Of a stretch of DNA of 64,000 nucleotides, positions 43,684-47,227 are shown in pieces. Where the stretch lies: contig DAHWKJ010000022.1 in NCBI GenBank assembly GCA_027343695.1, positions 1 through 64,000 of the forward strand, in the 5' to 3' direction. The position numbers and the translations under genes are program-made. The notes beneath the pieces are model-generated. The model made no database searches. It was not told where the DNA came from and saw nothing but the letters and a program-made list of their open reading frames with translations. Position 1 is the stretch's first letter. Each line of letters opens with the position of its first letter. The stretch comes from Sulfobacillus sp. Its GTDB lineage: Bacteria; Bacillota; Sulfobacillia; Sulfobacillales; Sulfobacillaceae.

Positions 43684-45462
43684 TTATTCGGCATTCCAGA
43701 CGAATTGTGACACGGTGTCTAAGGTCTGAATGCCATACGCCTCCGACGGGTTATTGTGGGACAGAATGGCCACCACATAGTTCCGCCCGCCACCGACGAC
43801 GTGCCCAATGCTATTGATTTCCCAACCGGCGGCGCCAATGGGTAACCATCCATTTTTAAGCGCCACAGTGCTTCCCTGGACGGGGCCCGTCGACACTCCC
43901 CAGGCTTCCCAGCCAATCACGTGTTGCATCAGGTTCAAGGCATATGTCTGTGACCCGGCGGTCAAGACATTATTGGGATAACTTAATAGTTTAAGTAAAG
44001 CCACCTGGTCGGCTGCGGTGGTCTCGGTCAGGCCCCAATAACCTCCTTTGCCAGGGACAGTAGCCGTCATTCCCGCCGCCTGGAGAAAGGCTTCAATCCC
44101 TGCCGAACGCCCTGCGGCATCCCACAAGGACGTCGCCGCCGAATTGCTACTATCTTCGATCATCGGAATCATAAGAGACTGTTCCTGGGTCGTCAAGGGT
44201 CTTCCCGACTTCTGGGATTGCCAGAGCAGCGTCGACATAATCGTGGCTTTGACAATACTGGCGGTATCGAAGCTCAACCCAGGGTTATACGTATAGGTAG
44301 CCCCCGTGTTGGCATTATAGACCGCTACCGAGACGACGGACTGTCTAGTCGCCAGATATTGCGTAAAGGCACTTCCAAAGGGATTTCCGACTCCGACCGG
44401 GAATGTTAGGGATGGTGCTGTTAGGTCCTTTGCGGCTTCATTAAGTAGTTGGATGATAGCGGAATGCTCGGTAATTTGGGTGAACAGTCCACGATGAAGA
44501 TAAGAGGTTGCCGCGGTGACAGCGGCTTGGGCTTGGCCATAGCCTGACCATTGGCTGGTCGCATGACTTAATTGGGCTTTCAGGCCGGATAAGGCCGTTA
44601 CCACGTCTTGAGGCTGATTACTTTCGAGCCCGTCGCTGACTTGGCCTAATATCTGCAACAGTTGAGCCGTGGTGGGGGGCTGGAGTCCTTGGAGCGCTTC
44701 TGTAAGAGTATTCATCATGGTGTGGTACCCCGAAAGTTCGTGTGGCGGGGACGTCGCCAAATAAGTGTTAGCTTGGGTCAGGGCATCTTTAGCGGTCGTG
44801 ACCCCTTGCCAATAGGCACCGGCACTATTGAGGTGTGTTTGTAACGACTCAACATCTTGGAGAACATTACGGGGCTCATTATTCGTCAAACCACCTCCGA
44901 CTGAGGAAAGCTGATGAAGGGTTGCTTCCCAGGTTTGGTACTGGGACTGCCAGGTTTTAATTTTAGCGGTCAGTTGGGAGGGCGTGGTGGCTGTCGTTAC
45001 TTCTTGGTGGACTTGTGGAGCACTGAGTGTTGCGAACTTGCCTTCTATGGTGACCACACGGTTACCCCACGTCAGGGCGAGTTGACGTTCATTGTGCATA
45101 TCCTGACCCAGCAGATGAGCGCTGGAACTCTGAAGGGTAGAAAGTTTAGCCGGTACACCCGATAGAGCCCCAAAATAGGTGGCGGGTAATAGTAAGACAT
45201 GCGCACTTTGGATGCGCGATAGGTCTTGACGCAGCGTACGCAGGACGGTCGGAGCCACACCTAAACTTTGATCTCGGGATAACCGCGCCTGGATTTGGGT
45301 CTCTGCGGTTAAGGCTTGTGCGGCATTTTGGTGCATCCAGAGGCCGAGGCTGCCTCCTAGTACCGAGACTCCTAACACCGAGGCGGTGACGGGCCAAGGC
45401 CAAGCCGTTTTCTTTTTCGAGCGCACCGAAACCTTGGGTTCTGGGATGCGTGGACTAATCAT
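43684..45462 (-). CDS. membrane-anchored class A beta-lactamase-like serine hydrolase with internal duplication
   Basis: 592 residues. One N-terminal membrane anchor (about 25-42) is followed by a helical extracytoplasmic region (about 50-350) and a C-terminal beta-lactamase/DD-peptidase fold. Active-site motifs: SIVK (S402, K405), SSN (438-440) in place of SDN, and KNG (536-538) in place of KTG. The helical region contains two copies of a ~67-residue unit (about 194-262 and 281-346), each starting N-x-P and containing YW/QW-G and TYL/SYL. GCAGGAGG precedes the ATG. It may act on the cell wall or be a non-hydrolytic binder; no Glu166-type omega loop is obvious. Confidence 0.8.
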   Translation of the reverse strand: MISPRIPEPKVSVRSKKKTAWPWPVTASVLGVSVLGGSLGLWMHQNAAQALTAETQIQARLSRDQSLGVAPTVLRTLRQDLSRIQSAHVLLLPATYFGALSGVPAKLSTLQSSSAHLLGQDMHNERQLALTWGNRVVTIEGKFATLSAPQVHQEVTTATTPSQLTAKIKTWQSQYQTWEATLHQLSSVGGGLTNNEPRNVLQDVESLQTHLNSAGAYWQGVTTAKDALTQANTYLATSPPHELSGYHTMMNTLTEALQGLQPPTTAQLLQILGQVSDGLESNQPQDVVTALSGLKAQLSHATSQWSGYGQAQAAVTAATSYLHRGLFTQITEHSAIIQLLNEAAKDLTAPSLTFPVGVGNPFGSAFTQYLATRQSVVSVAVYNANTGATYTYNPGLSFDTASIVKATIMSTLLWQSQKSGRPLTTQEQSLMIPMIEDSSNSAATSLWDAAGRSAGIEAFLQAAGMTATVPGKGGYWGLTETTAADQVALLKLLSYPNNVLTAGSQTYALNLMQHVIGWEAWGVSTGPVQGSTVALKNGWLPIGAAGWEINSIGHVVGGGRNYVVAILSHNNPSEAYGIQTLDTVSQFVWNAE

Positions 45463-45784
45463 AGGGTATCGCCTCCTGCTGTTCTTACCTCTATAACGTC
45501 AGGAATCCCACGGAGGTTACAGCAAACGGCATAAATGACAAAAATTGGGACAAGCGTGCAGAAACGACTCGACATTGGAGACTGACGTTGACCCCTATCG
45601 TTACTGACGTAACGTTAATCGAGGAGAAAAGGTGACCACCGACGGGAATGTGATGGGATGTCCCGTGCGATCGACAGGATTTGCGTGGGTGCCCGCGTGG
45701 TGAGATAGAGATGGTAAAGCCGGTTAGTACCCGTTAGAATGAGCAGCAAGCGGCACTGGTCACGATAGAGGGGATGGTGTCAAC
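45463..45784 (+). other. intergenic regulatory region upstream of the ABC-F gene
   Basis: About 320 bases without a gene. It shares the divergent promoters of the beta-lactamase-like gene and the ABC-F leader. CTGACGT occurs three times, at 45495-45502 (reverse), 45582-45589 and 45604-45611. The last is part of the inverted repeat GTTAC-TGAC-GTAAC at 45600-45613. TAGAAT at 45735-45740 is a possible -10 box. Confidence 0.45.
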
Positions 45785-45814
45785 ATGAAGTTTTCAGCCC
45801 ACATCAAATCCTAA
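45785..45814 (+). CDS. nine-residue leader peptide MKFSAHIKS
   Basis: ATG to TAA encodes MKFSAHIKS, with AGAGGGGA a good distance upstream. It ends at the foot of a terminator hairpin before an ABC-F gene. This is the layout of ribosome-mediated attenuation in ABC-F resistance genes. Confidence 0.6.
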   Translation: MKFSAHIKS

Positions 45815-45846
45815 GGGGCCACAACGGATGTGGACGGCCCCTTTTT
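45799..45846 (+). promoter_or_regulatory. transcription attenuator of the ABC-F gene
   Basis: Terminator stem AAGGGGCC (45813-45820) with GGCCCCTT (45836-45843), followed by T residues. A competing helix, CCACATC (45799-45805, inside the leader coding sequence) with GATGTGG (45827-45833), would enclose the left terminator arm. Leader translation could thus switch the structure. Confidence 0.65.
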
Positions 45847-45862
45847 GTGGGGTGATAATTTG

Positions 45863-47227
45863 TTGCGATTATCGAATATAACCAAACAGATCGACGGCGT
45901 GAACTTGTATCAGAAGGTTTCTCTGACTGCGGAAGCTGGAGAACCGATTGCCCTTATCGGCGCCAACGGCACCGGTAAGACTACTCTGCTAAAAATCCTC
46001 GCCGGGGCATTGCGTCCCGACCAGGGATCGATCCGGAACCCTTTCGGCGATCCGGCATGGTACCACGACCCCGATCCAGGACTCACTGGCTCGTGGGGAC
46101 AACGAGCCTGGATGACCCTTGAGGCATGCCTCAGAACCGACCCCCGATTCATCTTGCTGGACGAACCGACTCGACATTTGGATGACACCCATCAAGAAGC
46201 GCTAGCCCGATGGCTGTTGCGATTAAGCCATAGCCTACAAATCATTGTCAGCCACGACCTGGCGTTTTTAAACCAGGTGGCTACACGCACTTGGTGGATC
46301 CGCAATCACGTCATTGAAGACTTTGGCGGCCCTCCAGAATTTGCGCTTCAGATGGTGGAACAGCAAGAACAGGCCTATCGACGCGCCTTTGAGGCCCAAG
46401 AACGGGAGACCAGAAGGCTATTTACAGACATTCAAGCGACTAAAGAGCAGGCGAGGCGGACCGAATCCGGGACTATCGACAGTGGTCAACGGCGTCTGGC
46501 AAAAAAGGTTGCCAAAAAAGCTAAGAGTCGGGAGATGCGTTTGACGCATCGCATGGAATCTGAGGAGTACCTAAAAGCGCCCTTAGATGCCCATTCGCTA
46601 CGCTTTACTTGGGACCATATAGAAGTCGTGCCCCGGGTGGTGTGGCGGGTAGAGGATGGGGAGGTGGGGTGGACGCATCCGCTGCTTCGCCATCTCTGGT
46701 TGACCCTTAAGGGCGGTGATCGTGTTCGGGTAACGGGACCTAATGGAAGCGGCAAGACGTCTTTACTCGGCGCCATGTGTGGAAATGTTGGACGCCGCGC
46801 CGGGTATTTTCACGGGCCACTCGGGACCATAGGCCGACTTTATCAAGTGGTAGATGCTGAAACGACGGATGTCTTGACCTATTTTAGACGAGGCATCCGG
46901 CTTCCGATGGGGCGCGACCGCGCCTGGCTGCAAGCCTATGGTTTTAGTGCGAAACACTTGTCCCAACAGGTATCTGAGTTAAGCGATGGGGAACGCATGC
47001 GGTTAAACCTCTCGCGCCTCACCGCGACGGGGGTACCCACGCTCATTCTGGATGAACCGGAACATCATCTTGATGAGGATAGTTTAGAGGCCATTTGCCG
47101 CGGGCTTAGGCGATATCCCGGAACGTTGGTGGTGGTATCTCACCACGAGACGCTATGTAATAGTTTAGGTCTTAGCATTCGATGGCACGTGGATCAGGGC
47201 ACCGTGGCGGTTACCTCGGTACCCTAA
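45863..47227 (+). CDS. ABC-F family ATPase with shortened first domain
   Basis: About 454 residues with two soluble ATP-binding domains and no membrane helices, as in ABC-F ribosome-protection or translation factors. Domain 1: Walker A GANGTGKTT (33-41), Walker B LLDEPTRHLDD near 99. Only about 60 residues separate them and the signature reads LTGSWGQR, so the Q-loop and most of the helical subdomain are missing. The charged inter-domain linker (about 170-230) is present. Domain 2: GPNGSGKTS, LSDGER, LILDEPEHHLDED. Start is TTG 45860 or 45863 after GGGGTG. The attenuator upstream suggests antibiotic-induced expression. Confidence 0.85.
   Translation: MRLSNITKQIDGVNLYQKVSLTAEAGEPIALIGANGTGKTTLLKILAGALRPDQGSIRNPFGDPAWYHDPDPGLTGSWGQRAWMTLEACLRTDPRFILLDEPTRHLDDTHQEALARWLLRLSHSLQIIVSHDLAFLNQVATRTWWIRNHVIEDFGGPPEFALQMVEQQEQAYRRAFEAQERETRRLFTDIQATKEQARRTESGTIDSGQRRLAKKVAKKAKSREMRLTHRMESEEYLKAPLDAHSLRFTWDHIEVVPRVVWRVEDGEVGWTHPLLRHLWLTLKGGDRVRVTGPNGSGKTSLLGAMCGNVGRRAGYFHGPLGTIGRLYQVVDAETTDVLTYFRRGIRLPMGRDRAWLQAYGFSAKHLSQQVSELSDGERMRLNLSRLTATGVPTLILDEPEHHLDEDSLEAICRGLRRYPGTLVVVSHHETLCNSLGLSIRWHVDQGTVAVTSVP

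Follow-up and report, generated by a model that had tools for sequence, protein, structure and literature searches.

The DNA analysed here is a 64,000-nucleotide stretch from Sulfobacillus sp. (the window, by which we mean the whole of that stretch), and the locus of interest is a gene for an ABC-F protein of 455 amino acids, read on the forward strand from a TTG codon at 45860 to position 47227. The nearest relative of the locus (L009), whose ABC-F protein is 73% identical, keeps only the first TTG, which supports this start. A GTG at 45830, given as the start in an ORF-finder listing, was rejected because the TTG at 45860 has a conserved Shine-Dalgarno (SD) site and matches the relatives. 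The gene is present in a single copy in its own genome, where the next ABC-F paralogue is 33% identical. The curated profiles closest to the protein belong to ribosomal protection families (general, Vga and Msr), all of them scoring below their cut-offs (256 bits against 380 for NF000355, 172 against 725 for Vga). Among sequences of solved structures VmlR is the best match, with Vga(A)LC among the best, and the AlphaFold model (pLDDT 86.7) has two nucleotide-binding domains (NBDs), no membrane domain and a helical linker (helices 159-204 and 208-233) of the two-helix ABC-F type; its best Foldseek matches are VmlR2, Vga(A)LC and VgaL. The protein presumably protects ribosomes.

The clade formed by this gene and its orthologues is unusual in sequence. 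The signature of the first domain is degenerate, reading SWGQ or SWGE where LSGGE is usual, the first NBD is much shortened, and the unusual Walker B motifs DEPTRHLD and DEPEHHLD are invariant in 8/8 members. The divergent neighbour (43684-45462, reverse strand) encodes a protein of 592 amino acids whose C-terminal domain is a beta-lactamase2 (serine hydrolase) and whose N-terminus looks like a membrane anchor. An orthologue of the ABC-F gene occurs in Sulfobacillus harzensis, with others in several Bacillota MAG records of the Sulfobacillus-type order, a kinship from which we infer that the host is an acidophile, as the initial annotation had thought likely.

Immediately upstream, and also on the forward strand, lies a nine-codon open reading frame, ATGAAGTTTTCAGCCCACATCAAATCCTAA (45785-45814; MKFSAHIKS followed by TAA), which was read directly from the sequence. 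Its own ribosome site, GAGGGG at 45768-45773, would form a duplex of -11.3 to -13.1 kcal/mol with the anti-SD, the value varying with the stretch chosen. The genes of the window served as background (53-54 genes, 53 being those with a convincing start). An ORF of 5-10 codons with an SD of -10 kcal/mol or better, located no more than 130 nt upstream, precedes just one of the 53, the ABC-F gene itself. A search of the whole window against Rfam at gathering thresholds returned no match.

The leader is followed by a set of segments that can pair in more than one way. Within the leader, segment 1 (45794-45803, TCA-CCCACA) serves as an anti-SD: in minimum-energy folds it pairs with 45846-45855, in the region of the downstream SD. 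Segment 2, AAGGGGCC (45813-45820), is the G-rich 5' arm of a hairpin whose 3' arm is GGCCCCTT (45836-45843, direct read), with a stem of -14.8 kcal/mol and a loop of 15 nt. This loop holds segment 2', GATGTGG (45827-45833), the exact complement of CCACATC at 45799-45805 in the leader and identical in L009 only. Segment 3, GGCCCC (45836-45841), can pair either with segment 2, as an anti-sequestor, or with the SD, as a sequestor. Segment 4, GGGGTGAT (45849-45856), is the ABC-F ribosome site and is invariant in the eight aligned loci of the family. A run of five T (45842-45846), read earlier as a terminator tail, falls within the loop that segments 3 and 4 enclose when paired, and GGGGTGATAATTTG, which follows it, comprises the ribosome site and the TTG start. 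All of these segments lie on the forward strand.

The initial annotation had described the nine-codon leader with its ribosome site and the seven-base complementarity that gives two exclusive folds, and both descriptions stand: helices 1:2' and 2:3 cross and so could coexist only as a pseudoknot. It had also placed the end of the leader at the base of an intrinsic terminator. The first two bases of the hairpin are indeed the final two of the TAA stop codon, but as a terminator it is weak, with its 15-nt loop and five U. What the annotation missed is that the 3' arm, taken there solely as part of a terminator, also pairs with the ABC-F SD.

Sequestration of the SD is the common feature of the predicted folds. 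In the minimum-energy fold (-28.7 kcal/mol), 45794-45803 pairs with 45846-45855, the SD is buried and the 2:3 hairpin is nested inside; a fold combining 1:2' with 3:4 reaches -19.2 kcal/mol, 9.5 weaker, and buries the SD too. Shuffles of the leader interior match the observed burial in 3/200 cases. Across eight related family loci, the leader:SD duplex exceeds that of shuffled leaders with a combined p of about 0.007, which is only moderately significant; one reason is that shuffling leaves the C-rich composition unchanged. Burial as such is not unique to this gene, which ranks 5th of 54 in the window when a fixed stretch from -105 to +15 is folded.

We compared the locus with its orthologues. 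Reading of the upstream regions revealed an SD-led ORF of 6-9 codons before the ABC-F gene at 16/16 order-level orthologue loci. The leaders of the window's family are MKFSAHIKS, MKDLTHIKA, MVNFAPHT, MMKNIPVAD, MKNRVIHY, MKKTPTVC, MKKILVVC, MKNIPVAH and MFHGVKHRK (the last in two near-identical loci), and those of a sister family (f2) are MSHDRTR, MSQDHTR, MSFAVR, MSFSSR, MRFAAR and MRFFAR. At class level, a programmed search recovered a leader with SD in 6/6 evaluable loci of family f33, 3/3 of f9 and one of f10, with the eight-codon peptides MRKTAARI, MRKIAARI, MIKIVAIL, MIRIAARI, MVKIAASR, MDKIAARS, MKATAVSA, MKTTVALA and MHLRTAAR. Among 11 remoter ABC-F paralogues taken as controls, several have no leader and the rest have one that is weaker or otherwise placed. 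The peptides differ so widely between relatives that no drug-specific arrest motif is evident, and none common to the compared leaders was found.

The paired bases behave differently from the peptide. Between the window and L009, amino acids 3, 4, 5 and 9 of the leader differ, whereas CCCACATC, AAGGGGCC, GATGTGG, GGCCCC and GGGGTGAT are kept at every base. Identity in the attenuator block is 80-93%, that in the 140 bases upstream 31-60% and that at the start of the gene 67-69%. As the residues vary while the paired bases stay, it is the leader RNA rather than the peptide that seems to be under selection, judging from these alignments. The same pattern suggests a sensor of ribosome position, with no peptide-specific arrest.

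Helices 2:3 and 3:4 are present in 8/8 aligned family loci, all of which carry invariant GCCCC and GGGGTGAT, complementary to each other, around unconserved loops of 7-11 nt; the 3:4 helix has at least nine pairs in L041, L039, L016 and L043. The helices were compared locus by locus, MAFFT having offset segment 2 of the window and L009 by two columns. Covariation of both helices in relatives had been put forward as a check of the original proposal. The inner 2:3 stem changes with its pairing kept (ATCCA/TGGAT, GTCCAT/ATGGAT, TCCG/CGGA, GAC/GTC); helix 1:2' is seen in the window's form only in the window and L009. The SD side cannot covary because it is invariant. In the sister family (L018, L020-L024) the arrangement is simpler, with leader codons pairing directly with the ABC-F SD in one long hairpin.

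Several further features were observed in the relatives. Most relatives (L039, L016, L042, L043, L018, L020-L022 and L024) have a -10 hexamer resembling TATACT, TATGAT or TATAGT some 40-50 nt upstream of the leader start; at the comparable place the window and L009 read TTAGAAT, with no clear -35. In L023, tandem SD-like stretches (GAGAGGCTT and AGGGAGGCG, about 1408-1443) precede the ABC-F start, an apparent attenuator insertion. In L071, L073 and L075-L078, of a class-level family, eight-codon leaders of the form M-x-[KR]-[IT]-[AV]-A-x-x lie about 90 nt ahead of the ABC-F gene's start and are followed by an ATCCCGG hairpin, a second GC-rich hairpin and then a CCCGGGAGG-like ribosome site, which looks like another attenuator layout.

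The direction of control, which the initial annotation had left as unclear from the sequence, can be assigned computationally. We calculated how much energy it takes to open the 8-nt SD in free RNA and with a ribosome masking the RNA up to 15 nt beyond its P site; this footprint is assumed and the energies are for 37 C and neutral pH, and the outcome depends on both. In the free RNA of the window, opening the ABC-F SD costs 8-14 kcal/mol over 20 choices of transcript end. A P site at codons 1-6 is predicted to lower the cost to about 4-8 kcal/mol, with the minimum at codon 5, and a P site at codons 7-10 to return it to 8-12 kcal/mol. At default ends, dinucleotide shuffles of leader plus spacer match the burial in 0/150 cases and the switch in 0/150. 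Among the relatives, the predicted switch is strong in L040 (2/150 shuffles) and moderate against shuffles in L009, L039 and L043; it does not go beyond shuffles in L010/L041 (33/150), L042 (24/150) or L016 (38/150), and in L015, the ninth same-family locus, masking gives no opening of the SD. At most loci of the sister family the predicted cost is 8-16 kcal/mol without masking and about 3-5 kcal/mol with it. The predicted direction of control is thus induction by translation inhibitors.

Taken together, the leader region is probably an inducible, four-segment translational attenuator of the erm/cat type. The resting RNA would occur in two forms, one in which segment 1 pairs with segment 4 and the 2:3 hairpin is nested within, and one in which segment 1 pairs with loop 2' and leaves segment 3 for segment 4; both would bury the ABC-F ribosome site. 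A ribosome stalled at about codons 1-6 by a peptidyl-transferase inhibitor would cover segment 1, hairpin 2:3 would then form and keep segment 3 off the SD, and the ABC-F protein would be made. One stalled at codon 7 or later would hide segment 2 too, letting helix 3:4 form and keeping expression off. Drug-induced stalling on the leader is our inference, and early-stalling inhibitors are the predicted inducers. Such a prediction fits lincosamides, pleuromutilins and streptogramin A, which have been reported to stall at the start codons of ABC-F uORFs (PMC12421871, PMC9226507).

The initial annotation had recognized the architecture of antibiotic-sensing attenuation, and a ribosome-sensing leader, exclusive folds and an ABC-F gene are all present; what did not hold is a switchable terminator as the main mechanism. 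As a terminator, the post-leader hairpin is weak to borderline in the window. The T5 region has 6 T in 8, and scores from a d'Aubenton-Carafa-type formula range from 0 to +15 in the window and are about +5 in L009, which has T4. No U-tract follows the hairpin in 7/9 distinct same-family leaders, that of S. harzensis being one without, and the seven loci that lack the tail score -15 to -58. A terminator scanner limited to loops of 3-8 did not report the 15-nt-loop hairpin AAGGGGCC/GGCCCCTT; it reported instead GCCCC-TTTTTGT-GGGGT, a hairpin overlapping that one, in which the ABC-F SD is buried.

These scores bear first on a mixed mode of control, in which, in this genus, 2:3 and the T5 run end transcription and sequestration of the SD is added as a second layer, much as vmlR and cplR combine both. 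We consider this unlikely, although the tail and the scores of the window and L009 speak for it and a minor terminator layer may exist in the window's own genus. Apart from the rarity of the tail in the family, the logic of the folds runs against it. When the leader is masked, 2:3 is favoured, and were it an efficient terminator the drug would shut the gene off; a ribosome that had moved on far enough to disrupt 2:3 would release segment 3 to bury the SD. In constrained folding, 2:3 survives a stall at the inducing codons, and a stall that breaks 2:3 buries the SD; the combination expected of a VmlR- or MsrD-type system, in which the stall blocks the terminator and the gene stays translatable, did not appear.

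Transcription attenuation alone, with the pairing of 45799-45805 and 45827-45833 as antiterminator, is the model originally put forward for the locus and strikes us as very improbable. The pairing is exact, the helices are mutually exclusive and both are kept in L009. However, the alternative fold is the weaker one by the 9.5 kcal/mol given above, its helix is found in this form just in the window and L009, and the buried SD is left out of the model altogether. The reading is also internally awkward: if the antiterminator lies in the leader, stalling would trigger termination; masking favours 2:3, and breaking 2:3 from downstream buries the SD.

The leader might instead sense stalling in general, as in amino-acid starvation or slow peptide-bond formation, and the wide variation of the peptides, with no drug-specific arrest motif evident, would suit such a role. 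This too is highly improbable, given that the leader lacks the single-amino-acid run of biosynthetic attenuators and that the closest characterised relatives of the downstream ABC-F protein are ribosome-protection factors. Finally, a chance short ORF beside an ordinary hairpin, with no regulation at all, is barely credible: at a lax SD threshold 8/53 window genes have an SD-led ORF of 5-10 codons within 130 nt upstream, but only this gene has one with an SD of -10 kcal/mol or better, the leader recurs at all 16 orthologue loci, and the attenuator block is better conserved than the gene itself.

Translational attenuation of the erm/cat type, the preferred reading, has close parallels. In those attenuators (ermC leader; PMC10219788), as proposed here, a short SD-led leader is translated, and a ribosome stalled on it changes the RNA fold so that the SD of the downstream gene becomes accessible; the ermC-type logic appears as four segments in the window's family and, in the sister family, as a hairpin formed directly between leader and SD. 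They differ in having a methyltransferase or acetyltransferase gene downstream rather than an ABC-F gene, and in our case the leader peptide is not conserved and stalling is predicted. Control of ABC-F genes by stalling on short uORFs is known for VmlR (PMC9226507), CplR (PMC10201436), MsrD (PMC10314930) and TiaA/Are5sc (PMC12421871), cases mostly described as transcriptional, some with an extra translational layer.

vmlR of Bacillus subtilis shares with our locus the ABC-F gene, the uORF, the alternative RNA folds and an SD-sequestering hairpin, but it has a proven terminator/antiterminator and a three-codon uORF (MIN) in a 219-nt leader (PMC9226507), compared with a nine-codon uORF, a 78-nt element and a marginal terminator here. 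cplR of Clostridioides difficile likewise combines a uORF with a hairpin that buries the ABC-F SD, and translational attenuation alone is enough for repression there; unlike here, the terminator stem itself holds the SD, the polyU tract is real and the uORF is MRI (PMC10201436). In Streptomyces, tiaA (TiaA/ARE5) has a nine-codon uORF (MVGDDDISG) before an antibiotic-resistance ABC-F gene and shows control in a translational reporter while the transcriptional reporter is constitutive; it differs in its 194-bp 5'UTR with a predicted terminator/antiterminator and in its unrelated leader sequence and lineage (PMC12421871). msrD also has a short leader (MsrDL) before an ABC-F gene, where macrolide arrest is peptide-specific (MYLIFM) and occurs at the stop codon, with transcription attenuation proven (PMC10314930); a stall at the leader stop codon here is, in contrast, predicted to keep the gene off.

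We also entertain, tentatively, a wider picture in which one orthologous ABC-F family of Sulfobacillus-type bacteria uses two mechanically different drug-sensing leaders, the four-segment form and the direct leader:SD hairpin of the sister family. Both would be selected as anti-SD RNA and not as peptide, making each a broad sensor of early-elongation stalls, with an old anti-sequestor hairpin perhaps drifting into a terminator in one genus.

In the open-access literature we found no report of ABC-F or leader-peptide attenuators in Sulfobacillus or its relatives, and the present locus would extend ABC-F attenuators to an acidophile lineage. The analysis gives the question of direction a computed answer, predicted induction, and points to SD sequestration in place of a switchable terminator as the mechanism. 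The comparative set presents one gene whose switch persists through changes of leader peptide and fold. If correct, this suggests that acidophile communities have an inducible defence against drugs that target the ribosome; the occurrence of such drugs in these communities would follow.
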